The notes beneath the pieces were generated by a model that had not been told where the DNA came from, did no database searches, and was given only the letters and a program-made list of their open reading frames with translations. Of a DNA stretch of 64,000 nt, positions 11,711 to 64,000 are shown piece after piece. The stretch is from Pseudomonas fluorescens NCIMB 11764. Its GTDB lineage: Bacteria; Pseudomonadota; Gammaproteobacteria; Pseudomonadales; Pseudomonadaceae. Each line of letters begins with the position of its first letter. Position 1 is the stretch's first letter. The position numbers were made by a program, and so were the translations under genes. The DNA lies in assembly GCF_000293885.2 (NCBI RefSeq), contig NZ_CP010945.1:1632001-1696000 (forward strand), read 5' to 3'.

Positions 11711-11863
11711 GCATCGTGTCAGCGGTGGTTGTGGGACGTTTCCTAAGACGTGTTCCGGGAGGCTACAGCAGCTTGCGGCAGCGCCTACAACTACGCCAGA
11801 ATCCGCCGGCTTGTGCGCTTTGGGGAGCATCGGTAACTTGATTCGTGTCACTGATTCCCAGTG

Positions 11864-12066
11864 ATCGGGTTTAGTAGCCCGGTTTTCCTTCCCAAAAAAA
11901 TGCATAAGCGTCGATCAGTCAGGCATACGCCTGCACTTGATGGTAGCTGTGCGCATGGCGCCCTTGGGTGCGCCGGATTTGGGTCGGTGTCCGGTCTACT
12001 AACTTGCGTACAGCTGCCACCCTTCCGTTTAGTAGCGAGACAGGTTGCAGCACTACTAACAGGAAG
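11864..12066 (+). ncRNA. Structured 5' leader RNA of the first DUF6124 gene
   Basis: This fills most of the 365-base gap after LysR. Hand folding gives four parts. The first is a small hairpin at 11864-11883 followed by TTTT. The second is a closing helix P1 of 13-14 pairs (11941-11954 with 12006-12019) that encloses hairpin P2 (11957-11961 with 11970-11974) and a weaker P3 (11975-11978 with 11989-11992). The third is a hairpin pairing 12029-12035 with 12053-12059. The fourth, continuing the third, pairs 12022-12026 with 12062-12066, which buries the Shine-Dalgarno AGGAAG (12061-12066), 9 bases before the ATG. The words TTAGTAG and CTACTAA occur twice each in alternation, so competing pairings are possible. 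The same architecture precedes the second DUF6124 gene. Strand and ends are inferred from the downstream gene. I do not recall a named Rfam family for it. Confidence 0.6.
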
Positions 12067-56966: not shown

Positions 56967-57693
56967 TCGCTTGTCACCTCGCGAATGGCTGGAGCGCCAA
57001 CCGCTGAAACCTTCGGAGCAACTGTTCGCGATCTTCAGCAATACAAGCTCCGCAGAACCCTTAAAGGCCTGGCAGCGATCGATCGCCGCTCAAGCACCCT
57101 GTCCGATCTGGGCCGACACCGACTATGCCGAGTGGGAGCCGGTCATGCCTTATGTCGGAATCGTCGCTGCCGGCAGTGAGTTTCTGGAATGGGCGGCCAC
57201 GACCGAGTCTTGCGACTGGGGTTGGCTCGCGGTGTCTTCTTCGACTCGGGAAGTGTTGGTCGAGCATTTATGCAGCCTTACGCAAGTGCTTTTGCCTAAT
57301 GGCAGCGCGGTATTTTTCCGTTTCTGGGATGGGCGTTATTTATTGCCGATTCTTCAGTCTGCCGAGGTAAACGCGGCACAACTGATGCCGGTGATCGGGC
57401 GTTGCCTGATCAATGGCCAGTCACTTGAAATTGGCGGTGACGCGCTGAAAACCTCCAGGGTTTTTCCATGGTGGGAAGTCTCCGCAACGCTGCTGGAACA
57501 TCTCGCTGACCAGTCAAGCACCACTCGGGTGAACAACTTGCTCAAGTGGCTGAGCGAAGACCGTCCTGATCTTTTCGAGGCGTTCTCCGAAAACGTCTTG
57601 CGGCACAAGGTGGTGGTCTTTTTAGAGGCGCCAGACCTGCCGTCAGCACCGAAATCAGCCTTGGTGGATTACCTGATATCGGAGCTGGACTGA
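56956..57693 (+). CDS. DUF4123 T6SS effector chaperone
   Basis: This 245-residue protein of the DUF4123 (Tap/TEC) family loads cognate effectors onto VgrG. Typical patterns are LFAIFSNTSSAEPLKAWQ at the N-terminus, WGWLAVSSSTREVLVEHL and VFFRFWDGRYLLPIL. GTG 56956 is chosen because AAGGAGG ends 6 bases before it; a GTG at 56950 would leave no spacing. It overlaps VgrG and, by one base (TGATG), the Rhs gene, so the three are coupled. Confidence 0.88.
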   Translation: MQPDRLSPREWLERQPLKPSEQLFAIFSNTSSAEPLKAWQRSIAAQAPCPIWADTDYAEWEPVMPYVGIVAAGSEFLEWAATTESCDWGWLAVSSSTREVLVEHLCSLTQVLLPNGSAVFFRFWDGRYLLPILQSAEVNAAQLMPVIGRCLINGQSLEIGGDALKTSRVFPWWEVSATLLEHLADQSSTTRVNNLLKWLSEDRPDLFEAFSENVLRHKVVVFLEAPDLPSAPKSALVDYLISELD

Positions 57694-60600
57694 TGGATCA
57701 GATCGTACAGATCGAGCAGGAGCTCGACGGCTTCAAAGACACCTTGACGCTCTATCGCGAACAACTTGGCAACTGGTTCAACCGTACTGCCGACAAAGTC
57801 AGCCGGGCGACGGACATGCCTTCGCTGATGGGCGTGGAACGGCAAATCAAGCTCGGCAGTACCACCCAGTCGGTCAGCAGTAGCGATGACGATTTTATCT
57901 CCAGTGTTGCTCAGTGTCCTGAGAGCAGGATTCTGGAGATCGAAAGCAAGTTCGAGTCGGTTTACGACATTCCACTGGGGAACATTCAGGTTGATGTGAT
58001 TGCCGTTGATGGCGGCGAAAAGACAACGGTCACGCTTGATGAAAACGGCAAGGGACGGTTCGAAGGTACACCCGGCAAGTTCTACCGTGTTCATGTCCAC
58101 AGCGCGGTGACTTCGGATCAAGTTGATGAGCTTTTCAAGTCTTACGACGACCTGAGCGAACAACTCGAAACCTGGCTGCGCAACGAGTGGCAAGGTTTCA
58201 AGCCGCAATGGTCGCAGTCGGTTTTTGCCGCAGCGGGTAACGGCATGCTTGCTGGAAGTTGGGCCGCAATTATTGGTGTGTGGGACAGCCTCAACGTGCT
58301 CTCGGACATTCTCAAGGATCCCGGCGAGTTCGTTGAGCGACTGGGTAGCGGTGCTGATGAGCTGGCCAGGCTCGCAAAAACGGCTCCGGACGTGATGGCA
58401 AAAGTCCAACTGTTGGCCAGCGATGAAGCGGCACTGTGTTTGTTGCTGCGCACCGCCAGCCTCTGGTTGGAGATGCTGCCGCCCAGCGAGGTCGCCGGAA
58501 AAACCGCCGAGGCTGTATCAACAGTCGTCGTGCAGTTGCTCATCGACATTCTGATCGGGATTGTCCTGACCTTCGCTGGCGCGGGGGCTGGCATTGCTTA
58601 TCTGAGTATGCGTTTTGCCAGTTACGGCGCCCGCCTCGTCAGCGCCGTGCAGGGATTCGTCAAAGCGATCTTCAACCTCATCGATAACTTCATGAGCTAC
58701 GTCGACCGCTACAAAAAGGTCGCAGCAAGGGGCGTGGCGGCGGGCCCCAGAAGTGGCGGGGTGCAGCTGCGTTGGGACGCCAAACGCAACACGACCCTCA
58801 AGCAAACCGAACACCAGGACGACGTCCCGGTTCAGGCGAAAAACCCCAACGGCGACCCTGCCGATTCCGCCGATAAAACCGCCACCAACAAATGCCCGGT
58901 GTCGATGGTCACCGGCGAAGAGCTGCTGACCCTCACTGACGGCTCGCTGGACGGCATCCTGCCGTTCGACTTCACCCGCCTCTACCGCACCAGCGCTGTC
59001 GAGATCGATGGCGGGCTCGGTTTCGGCTGGAGTCACAGCCTCGCGCATCGACTGGAAATCGAGGGCGACAACGTCATCTGGATCGATCACGAAAATCGCC
59101 GCACCTCTTTTCCACTGCCGAGCATCGAACGCCCGGCCATCCACAACAGCCTCTCGCGCGCGGCAATTTTCCTGGGCGACGAACCAGAAGAATTGATCCT
59201 CGCCCAGGCCGGCGATGACACGCGTTTCTATCACTTCATCAACGGCCGACTGACAACGATCAGCGACGGTTACGACAACCGACTGCGCGTCACACGCGAC
59301 CGCCAGGAGCGCATCAAGCGCCTCGATAACGGCGCCGGCCGTGCCTTGCTGTTGCGTTATGAGCGCAGCCATCTGGTCGCCGTCGATTATCAGGTTTTCG
59401 TCCCGGCCCAAAATCTCGACCAGGCTTGGCACACCGAACAGACGCTGATCAGTTACCGCTACAACGACCGCCGGCAACTGATCGAAGCCACCAACGCTGT
59501 CGGCGAAAGCGAACGTTACGACTACGACGATCAGCACGTCATCCTGCAGCGGCAACTGGCCGGTGGGGCGAGTTTCTTCTGGGAGTGGGAACGGTCCGGC
59601 AAGGCGGCGCGATGCATCCGTCATTGGGCGTCATTTGCCCAGATGGAGGCGCGGTATGTCTGGGACGACGCGGGCAGCGTCACGGTCCGCAACAGTGATG
59701 GCAGCGAAGAGGTTTACCAGCACGATGATCGCGCGCGGTTGGTGCGCAGGATCGGGCTGGATGGCGGCGAACACTTCAAGGCCTACGACGACAAAGGCCG
59801 GTTGATTGCCGAGCAGGATCCGCTCGGCGCCGTCACCGAATACCACTACGACGAAGTCGGGCGGCTGGTCGCGCTGATTCCACCGGAAGAGGAACCAACT
59901 TCCTACGAGTATCGCAACGGTTTCCTGCATGCGCAGTCCCGCGGCAAAGCCGTGTGGACGTACCGGCGCAATGCCCAGGGCGATGTCATCGAGGCGACCG
60001 ATCCTGACGGTCATGTCACCCACTATCACTACGATGAAAAAGGGCAGTTGCTGTCGATCCGGTATCCGGATAACAGCCGTCATCTCTTCGTCTGGAATGC
60101 CTTGGGCCAACGGGTTGAAGAGACCTTGCCGGACGGTGGTCAGCGGCGGTTTTCCTACGATGCGTTGGGTCGGCAGATTACCCGCCAGGACGAACACGGC
60201 GCCGTCACCCGCTACCAGTGGGATGCCGTCGGACGACTGCTTCAGACGACGCTTCCCACAGGTGCCACTCGGGCATTCAGCTACAACGCCTACGGAAAAA
60301 TCACCGCTGAACGTGACGAACTGGGTCGTGCCACGCGCTACGAATACCTCGACGATTTGCACTTGGTCAGCCGCCGCGTCAATGCCGACGGTTCGCAGCT
60401 GAAGTATCGCTACGACAACGCACAGCTATTACTGACGGAAATCGAAAACGAGTCGGGTGAGAAATATCGCCTGGATTACACGCCCGGCGGATTGATCCGA
60501 CAGGAAACCGGATTCGATGGTCGTCGCACCGCGTATGCCTACGACCTCAACGGCCATCTGTTGGAGAAAACCGAGTTCGGCGATGAGGGGGCGCGGTGGG

Positions 60601-62474
60601 TTACCGCTTATGAACGAGACTCGGCAGGGCGGTTGCTGGTCAAGACGCTGCCCGACGGCATCAAGGTCGAGTATGGCTACGACAGCCTTGGCCGCCTGAT
60701 CAACGTCAATGACGGCCACGATCATCCGCTGGAATTCGAGTACGACCAACAGGACCGCCTGATCACCGAACATCAGGGCTGGGGCACCTTGCGCTATGGC
60801 TACGATGCCTGCGGCCAGCTCAACCGCATGCGCCTGCCGGACGGCAGCAAACTCGACTACCACCACGAAAAGGGCGGCGCGCTGAGCGCCATCGACCTCA
60901 ATGGCGCGCGGCTCACCACTCACCAATTCGCCTTCGGCCGCGAGCAGCAACGCCAACAAGGTCAACTCACCAGCCACTATCACTATGACGAACAGGGCCG
61001 GCTGCAAGCCCACGCGATCAACCAGCCAACCCGATCGCTGTACCTGCGCCACTACAGCTACGCGGTCAACGGCAACCTGGCGACCATCGCCGACAGCCGC
61101 CACGGCCAGCGCAGCTATTACTACGACCCGCTCAACCGCCTGACCCGCGTACGCCATACCCGCGACGACCTACCGGAAACCTTCGCTCACGACCCTGCTG
61201 GCAACCTGCTGTTGCAGGATCGCCCCGGCGTGGCGACCGTTAAAGGTAATCGCCTGCTGATGCAGGGTGACCGCCATTACGACTACGACGCCTTTGGCAA
61301 CCTCATCCGCGAGCGGTGCGGTACTGGGCAAAAACTCGTCACCGACTACCGTTACGACTGCCAGCACCGGTTGATCGGCGTCACCACACCCGACGGACGT
61401 TGCGCGAGTTACCGCTACGACGCCTTCGGCCGCCGCATCGCCAAAACCGTCGACGGTCACACCACCGAATTCTTCTGGCAGGGCGACAACCTCGTCGCCG
61501 AAAGCAGCCGCGAGCATTACCGCAGCTACGTCTACGAACCCGGCACTTTTCGCCCATTGGCCATGCTCGACGGCAAAGGCCCGCGCAAGGCGTGCCCGTT
61601 TTACTACCAGCTCGATCACCTTGGTACGCCGCAGGAGCTGACGGACTTTGGTGGCGAAATTGTCTGGTCGGCGAAGTACAACGCCTACGGAAAAGTCACG
61701 CATTTAGCAGTTGGCGGGGGAGAGCGGCTCGAACAACCGCTGCGGTTTCAGGGGCAGTACTTTGATGTCGAGAGCGGTCTGCATTACAACCGGCATCGGT
61801 ACTATGATCCGGAGGTAGGGCGATATCTGACGCCGGATCCTGTGAAGCTGGCGGGCGGGCTGAATCAGTACCGCTACGCGCTGAATCCGACGGGGTGGGT
61901 TGATCCGTTGGGGTTGAACGGGAATTGTCCGCAGTCGGTTAAGCCCGGGTGTAAGGCGCCGGATGATGCGACTGGCGCTAGGGTTGATGAGGGTGAGCCG
62001 CCTCTGCCGAAGATGACGCCTGAACAGAGGCGGGCGAGAATTGATGAGTTGGCTGAGGCGAATGCTTATCGGGAGTTGGAAAAAATTGAGAAGGCGACTC
62101 CAGGGGGACATTTTTTAGAAAAGCACGGCGCGCAAACTACGTTGCAATCGCAGATGGAGCGCGTGACGTCGGGTAAAAATCCGACAACGGGGGTAGTAGA
62201 AACCTACAGTAGTGGAAGGAGAAGAGGGGAGCCTAAAATACCTTCTGCGGCGACTCACTTCTTGAGCCACAGGGATCAGCTGAATGCTATACACAGAGCG
62301 CAATTGATTTTTCGACAAGCCGGTCTACTGGCGTCACGCAGGCCTATTGATATGGGGAAAAAAGTAGGGGCGGGGTATAAGCGAGGAAGTCTAGAGTATG
62401 GTGAACAGACCAAGGCGGTAGTCATATTGGATGATGTCGGGCGGCCTAAAACTTCTTATACGGACTTTGATTGA
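57693..62474 (+). CDS. Rhs-repeat T6SS effector with C-terminal toxin domain
   Basis: This is a 1593-residue effector. Residues 1 to about 350 form an N-terminal region with a small beta-rich domain (IPLGNIQVDVIAVDGGEKT) and a hydrophobic part (VVQLLIDILIGIVLTFAGAG); no PAAR domain was recognised. Residues from about 400 to 1408 are the Rhs/YD-repeat shell (YDALGR-like repeats). It closes with DPVKLAGGLNQYRYALNP and WVDPLGL, the self-cleavage region of Rhs proteins. The last 185 residues (from 61917) are the toxin. Their GGHFLEKHGAQTT, GAGYKRGS and final KTSYTDF look like the CdiA-type bacterial RNase A fold, where the late T-x-Y and early His are catalytic. This is a hypothesis. The toxin part is AT-richer than the shell. 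Confidence 0.88.
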   Translation: MDQIVQIEQELDGFKDTLTLYREQLGNWFNRTADKVSRATDMPSLMGVERQIKLGSTTQSVSSSDDDFISSVAQCPESRILEIESKFESVYDIPLGNIQVDVIAVDGGEKTTVTLDENGKGRFEGTPGKFYRVHVHSAVTSDQVDELFKSYDDLSEQLETWLRNEWQGFKPQWSQSVFAAAGNGMLAGSWAAIIGVWDSLNVLSDILKDPGEFVERLGSGADELARLAKTAPDVMAKVQLLASDEAALCLLLRTASLWLEMLPPSEVAGKTAEAVSTVVVQLLIDILIGIVLTFAGAGAGIAYLSMRFASYGARLVSAVQGFVKAIFNLIDNFMSYVDRYKKVAARGVAAGPRSGGVQLRWDAKRNTTLKQTEHQDDVPVQAKNPNGDPADSADKTATNKCPVSMVTGEELLTLTDGSLDGILPFDFTRLYRTSAVEIDGGLGFGWSHSLAHRLEIEGDNVIWIDHENRRTSFPLPSIERPAIHNSLSRAAIFLGDEPEELILAQAGDDTRFYHFINGRLTTISDGYDNRLRVTRDRQERIKRLDNGAGRALLLRYERSHLVAVDYQVFVPAQNLDQAWHTEQTLISYRYNDRRQLIEATNAVGESERYDYDDQHVILQRQLAGGASFFWEWERSGKAARCIRHWASFAQMEARYVWDDAGSVTVRNSDGSEEVYQHDDRARLVRRIGLDGGEHFKAYDDKGRLIAEQDPLGAVTEYHYDEVGRLVALIPPEEEPTSYEYRNGFLHAQSRGKAVWTYRRNAQGDVIEATDPDGHVTHYHYDEKGQLLSIRYPDNSRHLFVWNALGQRVEETLPDGGQRRFSYDALGRQITRQDEHGAVTRYQWDAVGRLLQTTLPTGATRAFSYNAYGKITAERDELGRATRYEYLDDLHLVSRRVNADGSQLKYRYDNAQLLLTEIENESGEKYRLDYTPGGLIRQETGFDGRRTAYAYDLNGHLLEKTEFGDEGARWVTAYERDSAGRLLVKTLPDGIKVEYGYDSLGRLINVNDGHDHPLEFEYDQQDRLITEHQGWGTLRYGYDACGQLNRMRLPDGSKLDYHHEKGGALSAIDLNGARLTTHQFAFGREQQRQQGQLTSHYHYDEQGRLQAHAINQPTRSLYLRHYSYAVNGNLATIADSRHGQRSYYYDPLNRLTRVRHTRDDLPETFAHDPAGNLLLQDRPGVATVKGNRLLMQGDRHYDYDAFGNLIRERCGTGQKLVTDYRYDCQHRLIGVTTPDGRCASYRYDAFGRRIAKTVDGHTTEFFWQGDNLVAESSREHYRSYVYEPGTFRPLAMLDGKGPRKACPFYYQLDHLGTPQELTDFGGEIVWSAKYNAYGKVTHLAVGGGERLEQPLRFQGQYFDVESGLHYNRHRYYDPEVGRYLTPDPVKLAGGLNQYRYALNPTGWVDPLGLNGNCPQSVKPGCKAPDDATGARVDEGEPPLPKMTPEQRRARIDELAEANAYRELEKIEKATPGGHFLEKHGAQTTLQSQMERVTSGKNPTTGVVETYSSGRRRGEPKIPSAATHFLSHRDQLNAIHRAQLIFRQAGLLASRRPIDMGKKVGAGYKRGSLEYGEQTKAVVILDDVGRPKTSYTDFD

Positions 62475-62824
62475 TGAAAGATTATTACAATATCGCTGAT
62501 ATACGCAGTCTGCTTTTTGTCTTTGATATCGAGAACACGGATGACGAAGAAAGGGAGGAGATAATAGTTTCCAAAAATGTAAATGATGAGAAGGAGCTTT
62601 CTGAGCTGTTTGATGTTTTGATTAGGCCTGAATTTCTTGTTTATAAGGAGAAAGAACGAGAGTTTTTAATTAGTACAATCTCATATTTTTTAGATGTAAA
62701 TGATACGTTTGATCAGGTCTTTAAGAAGATGACGACCTACTTTGATGATGAGGTCATAGATCAAAGGAAGTTTATGACGATTCTTTTAGGTTGTTTGCAG
62801 CGGTATCAGCGAGACGAGAGTTGA
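62474..62824 (+). CDS. Putative immunity protein of the Rhs toxin
   Basis: This 116-residue acidic, helical, soluble protein is encoded directly after the toxin. The ATG overlaps the Rhs stop by one base (TGATG). Base composition is clearly AT-rich compared with the Rhs shell, as usual for exchanged toxin-immunity pairs. I do not recognise a family. The role is inferred from place, size and composition. Confidence 0.8.
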   Translation: MKDYYNIADIRSLLFVFDIENTDDEEREEIIVSKNVNDEKELSELFDVLIRPEFLVYKEKEREFLISTISYFLDVNDTFDQVFKKMTTYFDDEVIDQRKFMTILLGCLQRYQRDES

Positions 62825-63053
62825 TCGTTGGATTTCTCATAAGTGATCGAGAAATTTCTGGGCAAGGTCGTCGGAAGTTTCCTTCAAGTCGCGGCGGTTT
62901 CCATGAACTGGTTTGGAATACGTTCCATCGATAGTCTCTGGTGGTCACTGAAAATTCAGTGGCAGGGTGTAGGAACCCTTCAAGACTAGAGAGGACGCTT
63001 TGGCGTCGACACTTGAATTGCGGCCATCAACATGCGTCCGTAAGATCAGTTGC

Positions 63054-63176
63054 GGCGGCTGTGCGCGGGCACGCTTCGGTGTGGTCGAGTTCTCTGGTCT
63101 CGATATTCCTACCCCGCGTATAGCTGCCACCCAAGCCTGTAGGAAGGCCGATGGTAGCTTCCCTTCTTACCAGAGG
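63054..63176 (+). ncRNA. Structured 5' leader RNA of the second DUF6124 gene
   Basis: This lies in the 359-base gap after the immunity gene. Helix P1 has 16 continuous pairs (63054-63069 with 63113-63128). It encloses P2, five pairs closed by a cUUCGg tetraloop (63070-63083), and P3, five pairs (63085-63089 with 63099-63103). A second stem pairs 63139-63147 with 63162-63170 and continues, after a 3-base bulge, with 63133-63138 pairing 63174-63179. That last stem covers the Shine-Dalgarno AGAGG (63172-63176), 7 bases before the ATG. The layout matches the leader at 11864-12066, with one-sided pair-preserving changes in P1 (U-G to C-G, A-U to G-U, G-C to G-U) and unrelated P2/P3 sequences. The stretch 62825-63053 holds nothing else I can name. 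Confidence 0.62.
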
Positions 63177-63183
63177 TTTAAAA

Positions 63184-63501
63184 ATGACAAATCTTCACCC
63201 CGATCCACCCTACGAAAAACCAGCCCCTCCACCCAAAAGCCGCTTCATGGCACTGACCAGCAACTGCGACGACATGCCCACCTTGTTCGTCGATACCCTC
63301 GCACCACTCGACGTTTTATACGACGCGGCCAGCTTTCGAATCCGCGCCGTCACCCAAGTCATGGAAAACCTGTCGATGCGTGGCTCGGTCGAGTGTCAGT
63401 CCTTCATCCTCAGTGACTTTGCCTTGCTCTGCGCCATTCCGTTGCGAGACGGGTGTGATGTGCTGGATGTGCTGGGGCGGCGGTTGAAAGCGCTGTCGTA
63501 A
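63184..63501 (+). CDS. DUF6124/DUF3077-type protein, divergent member
   Basis: This 105-residue protein starts with the Pro-rich MTNLHPDPPYEKPAPPPKS seen in the family. The helical core has MPTLFVDTLAPLDVLYDAAS and VECQSFILSDFALLCAIPLR, close in layout but diverged from the copy at 12076. ATG 63184 is chosen over 63151 because AGAGG lies 7 bases before it and the Pro-rich start matches. Function is unknown. It sits inside a T6SS effector island. Confidence 0.7.
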   Translation: MTNLHPDPPYEKPAPPPKSRFMALTSNCDDMPTLFVDTLAPLDVLYDAASFRIRAVTQVMENLSMRGSVECQSFILSDFALLCAIPLRDGCDVLDVLGRRLKALS

Positions 63502-63566: not shown

Positions 63567-63983
63567 CTACTTTGGTAGGTACTGATCCTGAGATTTGACG
63601 AATGCGTCGAATTCCGCGGAGTTGTAAACCTCTAGGCAACCATAAAAAACCATACTTTTATCGGAGTGCTTGCTGACGGATGAGGTCCTTGCGTAGGCAT
63701 TACGCATGTATTTCTCGGTTTCTGCGTAGGGATCGTGCGTGACTTCAAGGGTGTCCTCGTTTTGAACGATCAGATGCTGACCTTTTCCCATCGACGAGTA
63801 GGCGCCAATCGCGAGTCCTATATCAGATTTGATTTCTGACTCGCCCTTGAATTGGCCGGAAATACAGTTGGCCAACCCATAATTTTTAAGCGTTTCTCGA
63901 GCCTTGTCGATACTGATTTCAGCAGATATGGCTCGCCCTGAAACCAATAGCAGTGCCAGCACAATTAACTGCGAGCGCGTCAT
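63567..63983 (-). CDS. Tai4-like T6SS amidase immunity protein
   Basis: This 138-residue protein has a signal peptide (MTRSQLIVLALLLVSGRAISA/E), so it acts in the periplasm. The mature part has the layout of Tai4 (T6SS amidase immunity): YGLANCISGQFKG early, an AIGAYSSMGKG helix, and YGCLEVYNSAEFDAFVKSQD near the end, with two Cys residues that can form the family disulfide. Tai4 proteins inhibit the peptidoglycan amidase Tae4. A tae4 gene would be expected upstream, beyond the right edge of the window. ATG 63983 is preferred to a TTG at 63998. Confidence 0.65.
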   Translation of the reverse strand: MTRSQLIVLALLLVSGRAISAEISIDKARETLKNYGLANCISGQFKGESEIKSDIGLAIGAYSSMGKGQHLIVQNEDTLEVTHDPYAETEKYMRNAYARTSSVSKHSDKSMVFYGCLEVYNSAEFDAFVKSQDQYLPK

Positions 63984-64000
63984 CCTTTCAACTCCCAAAA

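Follow-up and report, generated by a model that had tools for sequence, protein, structure and literature searches.

The window, i.e. the whole stretch of 64,000 nucleotides analysed here (Pseudomonas fluorescens NCIMB 11764, contig NZ_CP010945.1, positions 1,632,001 to 1,696,000), carries close to its end a small gene at 63184–63501 and, upstream of it, a structured RNA at 63048–63134. This RNA is a C4 antisense RNA and belongs to the known phage-type family RF01695 of Rfam. A second cassette of the same kind (copy 1) is found elsewhere in the window. That C4 serves as an immunity RNA of the phages P1 and P7 has been known since 1990. The names a' and b' follow the record of phage P1, where b' is the hairpin loop of C4 and a' is the single-stranded segment before the closing strand. 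The elements of the two cassettes are as follows.

62878–62912, plus strand: block TTTCCTTCAAGTCGCGGCGGTTTCCATGAACTGGT, 5' of the promoter-like site, strongly conserved in the family of the 63184–63501 gene, a possible operator (alignment of 29 upstream regions)
62930–62936, plus strand: GATAGTC, predicted -10 element of the promoter of the cassette (conserved in the 29-region alignment; role suggested by its position)
62931–62983, plus strand: match to RF03163 (c4-a1b1), 42.6 bits, under the cut-off of 46.7
62969–62975, plus strand: site a1, GTAGGAA, a hairpin-loop sequence upstream of C4 that is complementary to a' (7 pairs); the arrangement in P1 is alike
62986–62992, plus strand: site b1, CTAGAGA, which forms 7 pairs with loop b' including one G-U, read by eye
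63048–63134, plus strand: C4 antisense RNA, RF01695 match with 60.5 bits (cut-off 45)
about 63054–63131, plus strand: predicted mature C4 RNA, by analogy with the limits of P1 C4
63089–63099, plus strand: hairpin loop b' of C4, GUUCUCUGGUC, with complementarity to the Shine-Dalgarno region
63105–63112, plus strand: C4 single-stranded segment a', AUUCCUAC, from the loop and segment analysis of the collected C4s
63139–63145, plus strand: predicted target a2, GTAGGAA, 7 Watson-Crick pairs with a'
63169–63176, plus strand: predicted target b2, ACCAGAGG, containing the Shine-Dalgarno sequence AGAGG; 8 pairs with loop b' (7 Watson-Crick and one G-U), -11.7 kcal/mol
63184–63501, plus strand: putative target gene, open reading frame of 105 aa, product predicted as a helical hairpin
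11834–11885, plus strand: RF03163 (c4-a1b1) match of copy 1, 27.0 bits, under the cut-off of 46.7
11936–12024, plus strand: C4 antisense RNA of copy 1, 51 kb from the copy at 63048–63134, RF01695 match with 66.2 bits
12076–12366, plus strand: putative target gene of copy 1, DUF6124 (PF19619, 77.8 bits)

Membership in RF01695 is defined by a covariance model score above the curated cut-off of 45 bits, and both copies score higher. A sequence-only reading of the same DNA had seen here a structured leader without any described RNA family. Rfam does describe both copies, an outcome which that reading had itself named as a refutation, and a new riboswitch-like RNA family at 63048–63134 was rejected because of the RF01695 hit over the cut-off. 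The second copy, to which that reading had pointed, is a C4 as well. Conversely, a covariance model built from only the 21 C4s of this genome recovers the C4 of phage P1 with 52.7 bits.

The fold of 63048–63134 has an energy of -44.4 kcal/mol and a z-score of -4.4 (none of 200 shuffles as good); for the opposite strand the z-score is -1.5. The elements described before, i.e. closing helix, UUCG hairpin and second inner hairpin, are all present. The count of 16 closing pairs is correct for each copy, but the helix spans 17 positions, one of which is unpaired: a C/A mismatch in the 63048–63134 copy and a U/U mismatch in copy 1. Direct comparison of both copies also reproduces the three outer-helix positions that are changed on one side with pairing kept, and two further positions are changed on both sides. 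Among the 21 copies of the genome two-sided changes occur in 15 of 27 C4 pairs (shuffled mean 6.3; 0 of 500 shuffles reach 15), and standard pairs make up 97.4% of the pair cells. For 61 distinct C4s from loci of the 63184–63501 gene family the corresponding values are 17 of 27 pairs and 96.7%, taken from an alignment that was fitted to the structure and is biased in its favour. According to the earlier description the inner hairpins of the two copies are unrelated in sequence. Loops that act as address codes, each matched to the target of its own copy, would be expected to differ in this way.

The limits originally given for the unit (63054–63179) are too short. The functional unit comprises approximately 62878–63501, which adds the upstream sites a1 and b1 and a promoter-like region. 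The position of the block at 62878–62912 is comparable to that of the Oc4 operator of phage P1. When the fold of the whole leader is predicted, a' and b' of C4 are paired with a1 and b1, not with a2 and b2. Just 3' of the promoter-like site, at 62935–62942, TCTCTGGT repeats the core of the C4 loop and pairs with the Shine-Dalgarno sequence in the predicted whole-leader fold; similar letters are found at this position in the relative L052 despite its other loop, so the match to the loop may be chance. A separate observation concerns a 22-bp sequence with exactly five occurrences in the genome at up to two mismatches (11795–11816 and four other places, L141–L145). Each occurrence is located 137–141 bases 5' of the start of a DUF6124-type C4, and at three of the five places the cassette homology begins near -204 from C4. 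This repeat is possibly an operator or a cassette end.

Each C4 is complementary to its own leader rather than to the leaders of others. The underlying sample consists of 140 loci, namely the 21 of the genome, the best C4 matches in other Pseudomonas species and homologues of the 63184–63501 gene, of DUF6124 and of DUF3077. The model finds 133 matches in them; after removal of three weak ones on the reverse strand 130 remain, of which 116 are distinct sequences. The loci were picked by best score, not randomly, and are mutually related, so that the following are not counts of independent events: in 102 of 116 cases a' forms at least seven contiguous Watson-Crick pairs with the 25 nt immediately 3' of its own C4 (99 of 10,786 for mismatched, dissimilar loci), and at least seven contiguous pairs with the region 5' of its own C4, as an a1-type site, in 101 of 116 (164 of 10,786 for dissimilar loci). 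Since 26 different a' heptamers pair with their own sites, this is co-variation and not one conserved word.

The same holds for the loop. Across the 116 distinct C4s, b' pairs with its own leader with a mean of -13.4 kcal/mol, compared to -6.8 kcal/mol with dissimilar others (0 of 2000 permutations as good). In 76 of 116 cases no dissimilar leader pairs as well as the own one, and the own leader is within the best 5% in 101 of 116. The Shine-Dalgarno zone is at least partly covered by the duplex in 108 of 115. For the loop at 63089–63099, 1.2% of dissimilar leaders pair as well as its own. The fit is poor for nine of the 116 C4s, for which at least 20% of dissimilar leaders equal the own one (copy 1, L057, L073, L079, L085, L087, L097, L108 and L137); in copy 1 (L018) as many as 41% of dissimilar leaders do as well as its own Shine-Dalgarno region.

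This genome, a single contig of 7.0 Mb, contains 21 C4s over the cut-off. With both contacts summed, the own leader is the best predicted target for 20 of 21 C4s and the own C4 is the best regulator for 20 of 21 leaders. A single contact places the own partner best in 15 (loop) or 11 (segment) of the 21. The exception is again copy 1, which is predicted to bind the leader of L013 better than its own. We infer that a' and b' serve as address codes, by which about 20 switches could operate in one genome with little cross-talk.

C4 cassettes are widespread in the genus: a C4 over the cut-off was found in 137 of 149 Pseudomonas genomes, 33 of which have at least 27 copies. In the family sample, which includes five Pseudomonas genomes, C4 is present in 41 of 59 genomes and in 17 of 19 genera, and the highest count (36) again belongs to a Pseudomonas genome. 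In the order sample C4 occurs in 15 of 115 genomes, 12 of them outside the family with one to six copies each. A search of 14 control genomes gave no C4.

The locus sets from genus, family and order, including those of the searches for DUF6124, DUF3077 and relatives of the 63184–63501 protein, represent best-scoring matches and not a random draw. A replication set of 30 C4 loci from other genera of family and order (one of them under the Rfam cut-off) shows a2 pairing in 27 of 30 (background 4 of 680), the upstream site in 26 of 30 and a loop within the best 5% in 29 of 30. The genes behind C4 in these loci include BRO-N and KilA-N proteins (two tested). The gene family of 63184–63501 itself was followed in 79 loci from named genomes, all of them Pseudomonas. 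C4 precedes the gene in 77 of the 79; these hold 81 C4s because four loci have a second one. Pairing at a2 is found in 73 of 78 distinct units of the family. Its 28 different loops track their own Shine-Dalgarno regions (-12.9 kcal/mol for the own region vs -6.0 kcal/mol), and the own target beats every dissimilar one in 64 of 75 cases (0 of 2000 permutations as good). If one representative per loop is taken, the own target is the single best in only 10 of 28, which we ascribe to near-identical loops that share targets.

Losses of C4 were also observed. Among 30 sampled loci of the family, 29 have C4 and one (L070) does not. The two of the 79 named loci that have no full C4 before the gene are L256 and L205. 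Inspection by eye indicates that in L256 C4 is gone while a1/b1, the Shine-Dalgarno sequence and the gene are kept, that only the 3' half of C4 is left in L205, and that L130 has lost C4 and retained the gene. L256, L205 and L130 are natural alleles that are predicted to be unlocked and to offer a ready-made natural test.

Both genes downstream of C4 in the window had been taken for DUF6124 genes. This is correct for copy 1. The protein of 63184–63501, on the other hand, gives no match to PF19619 at E 1, nor at E 5 with an upstream start, and it matches no family in Pfam, NCBIfam, PHROG or PADLOC. Its DUF6124 identity was rejected on this basis and because a profile comparison of both families gave a probability of 3.6%. 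Both proteins are predicted as helical hairpins (pLDDT 81 for 63184–63501 and 77 for the DUF6124 protein of copy 1), but as the profile comparison does not link them, common descent is not claimed. A fold search with the 63184–63501 model in the PDB returned nothing below E 2.6, and with both hairpin models in BFVD nothing below E 0.3. DUF6124 (PF19619) and DUF3077 (PF11275) genes resemble the 63184–63501 gene in being small genes behind C4, although its product matches neither family.

The 21 C4 loci of the genome include six with DUF3077 genes (all six recovered by the DUF3077 search), four of these after a short first frame of 27–37 aa, five with DUF6124 genes (two tested, the others by likeness), two with BRO-N genes and two beside phage regulators (Rha near L003, P22_AR_N near L007). 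In six loci the small gene has no Pfam match over the cut-off; 63184–63501, L010 and L016 are among them, and the latter two are relatives recovered by the search with the 63184–63501 protein. Across genera, a short first frame of 52–57 aa behind C4 was seen in L003, L007, L147, L148, L150, L152, L153 and L160. DUF6124 occurs in 118 of 149 genomes and DUF3077 in 76 of 99. In the sampled loci a C4 match lies within the 3-kb stretch for 21 of 30 DUF6124 loci and 27 of 30 DUF3077 loci, and C4 is absent or decayed in the remaining nine and three, respectively.

Phage records gave no match to the 63184–63501 protein or to its C4 DNA. When five proteins were compared with PHROGs only the DUF3077 protein was matched (phrog_36471, a phage family of unknown function), and PADLOC gave no match for the five. 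A DUF6124 relative appears in a sole phage record (EU982300.1, 58–264), at the very edge of the record and possibly in host flank. Six other cassette neighbours were scanned; five belong to ordinary chromosomal families (ChlI, MatE, hydrolase, LysR, AsnC) and one has no match.

The cassette at 62878–63501 is located 3' of an Rhs gene (57693–62474, RHS repeats), as are 33 of the 79 named relatives judged by an Rhs motif. The Rhs protein has a tail and is followed by a small gene (62471–62824) at the position of an immunity gene, for which no family was found in Pfam, NCBIfam or PADLOC. On the other side, the minus-strand frame 63567–63998 adjoins the cassette and gives a sub-cut-off match to Tai4 (23.4 vs 27.1 bits), a type VI secretion amidase immunity protein.

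A stem-loop that hides the Shine-Dalgarno sequence had been proposed as the regulatory element. Across families the sequence is indeed moderately more buried, with an unpaired probability of 0.31 vs 0.43 in shuffles for 115 leaders. In the 63169–63176 copy, however, the effect does not exceed that of shuffles, 271 of 300 of which bury the Shine-Dalgarno sequence at least as well. According to these models the stem-loop may be a second layer of control. The core of the earlier interpretation, namely that a conserved RNA structure likely controls the ribosome-binding site of the following gene, is retained; the new family and the cis-acting sensor of a ligand, temperature or RsmA are not. Since the loop of C4 itself is complementary to the Shine-Dalgarno region and co-varies with it, antisense repression by C4 is likely rather than ligand, heat or RsmA sensing.

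We propose, with a probability of roughly 85%, that C4 is freed from the leader and represses translation of 63184–63501 by pairing of a' with a2 and of b' with b2. By analogy with P1, a single promoter would give one transcript that carries a1/b1, C4 and the small gene. RNase P trimming would cut C4 free of the leader. The freed C4 would then act in trans on gene transcripts, a' binding to a2 and loop b' to b2. With b2 the Shine-Dalgarno sequence would be covered, ribosomes could not start and the gene would be repressed. For P1 the basis of transcription, cutting, trans action and repression is given in extracts of PMC5320573, PMC8198154 and PMC12197685.

C4 might instead stay attached and fold back on its own a2/b2 within one transcript, without being released as an antisense RNA. 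C4 and the target are only 4 nt apart and likely part of one transcript, and the whole-leader fold allows cis pairing with C4, though by a1/b1 rather than a2/b2. In P1, however, C4 is annotated as a separate 77-nt RNA which RNase P frees, and reads of C4-like RNA from Acinetobacter baumannii also indicate cutting (both in extracts of PMC5320573), so that we consider a permanently attached C4 unlikely. A far less probable candidate is the sensor leader proposed from the sequence, i.e. a ligand riboswitch, an RNA thermometer or a site for RsmA or the DUF protein. It would account for a structured RNA preceding a gene and for the moderate burial of the Shine-Dalgarno sequence over 115 leaders. 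The unpaired bases that should be conserved in a ligand pocket nevertheless vary and track the target (26 heptamers, 28 loops), the Shine-Dalgarno hairpin of the 63169–63176 copy is no better than shuffles, and the RNA is identified as C4 (RF01695). A sensor is therefore hardly to be expected here.

Antisense RNAs beside small genes, in many dispersed copies with separate codes, are also reminiscent of type I toxin-antitoxin systems, with C4 as the RNA antitoxin and the small protein as the toxin. Furthermore, icd, the first gene behind C4 in P1, inhibits cell division according to an extract of PMC8198154. The products are, however, 89–131 aa long where listed (BRO-N aside) and have no membrane-type stretch by eye; two are predicted helical hairpins and four of these proteins have no PADLOC match. 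Retention of the gene after loss of C4 in L256 and L130, as read by eye, would be unlikely for a strong toxin. A toxin function is thus quite improbable. We judge similarly low the chance that the cassettes are prophage debris, that is, leftovers of phage immunity regions on which no selection acts. The known role of C4 in phage immunity fits such an origin, as do the two of 21 loci that adjoin phage regulators (Rha, P22_AR_N) and the two of 21 that carry BRO-N genes. Debris would, on the other hand, hardly maintain the co-variation of loop and target over many lineages, nor be present as C4 in 137 of 149 genomes, and five of the six other neighbours are ordinary chromosomal families.

Release of C4 and antisense repression of the gene behind it thus remains our preferred reading. 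The apparent riboswitch-like leader is then likely an immunity switch of the phage type that is now associated with uncharacterised host genes. For the small protein we guess at a regulator of phage origin that the host has retained. A wider and still speculative picture, which we hold to be possible but doubtful, is that Pseudomonas domesticated a phage immunity module. Each genome would contain dozens of C4 cassettes, and every cassette would use a two-part code of its own to lock, independently of the others, a single protein, either a small helical one (DUF6124, DUF3077 or unnamed families) or a BRO-N protein. The locks would open together when C4 is not made or not used, e.g. if an incoming phage blocks RNase P or bears decoy sites that match, and the module might serve as a host alarm or in superinfection immunity.

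The interest of the finding lies in its setting, a phage immunity RNA turned into a large chromosomal family with readable targets. The likely target, the gene directly behind each C4, is legible from the sequence. A candidate regulator of this kind offers a handle on many Pseudomonas genes of unknown function (DUF6124, DUF3077). In addition, a single genome supplies about 20 natural antisense pairs that should be largely independent according to the predictions and could be tested at once. In searches of open-licence papers no publication among the matches listed deals with Pseudomonas C4 cassettes, judged by title and beginning of the abstract, and no paper mentions DUF6124. C4 is already listed for Proteobacteria and phages in an extract of Weinberg et al. 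2010 (PMC2864571), so its occurrence outside phages is not itself new. What is likely new is that C4 cassettes form a large chromosomal family in Pseudomonas with identified putative targets.

The closest counterpart is the immI operon of phage P1, which in the phage record has the order operator Oc4, promoters, a1, b1, c4 (77 nt), a2, b2, icd and ant. The two systems are alike in fold, in the order of parts and in two-site complementarity with b2 at the Shine-Dalgarno sequence. In P1 the C4 loop and segment pair with their own leader at the annotated sites with -11.7 and -8.3 kcal/mol, and the short first frames behind C4 in Pseudomonas and other genera (27–37 aa and 52–57 aa) resemble icd before ant. 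The systems differ in the target, which in P1 is the icd-ant antirepressor unit, whereas the 63184–63501 gene matches no Pfam, NCBIfam or PHROG family. They also differ in number, since one Pseudomonas genome has 21 C4 copies with mostly different codes. The upstream hairpins match both RF03163 (c4-a1b1) and isrK (RF01394), in each case under the cut-off; IsrK of Gifsy-1 activates orf45-anrP in trans, according to an extract of PMC4825925. Group 1 C4-like sRNAs of A. baumannii likewise comprise many chromosomal C4-type RNAs per genome with a variable loop. In the extract of that report (PMC5320573) their expression is described and their targets are left open, whereas in Pseudomonas each C4 likely targets the gene that immediately follows it.
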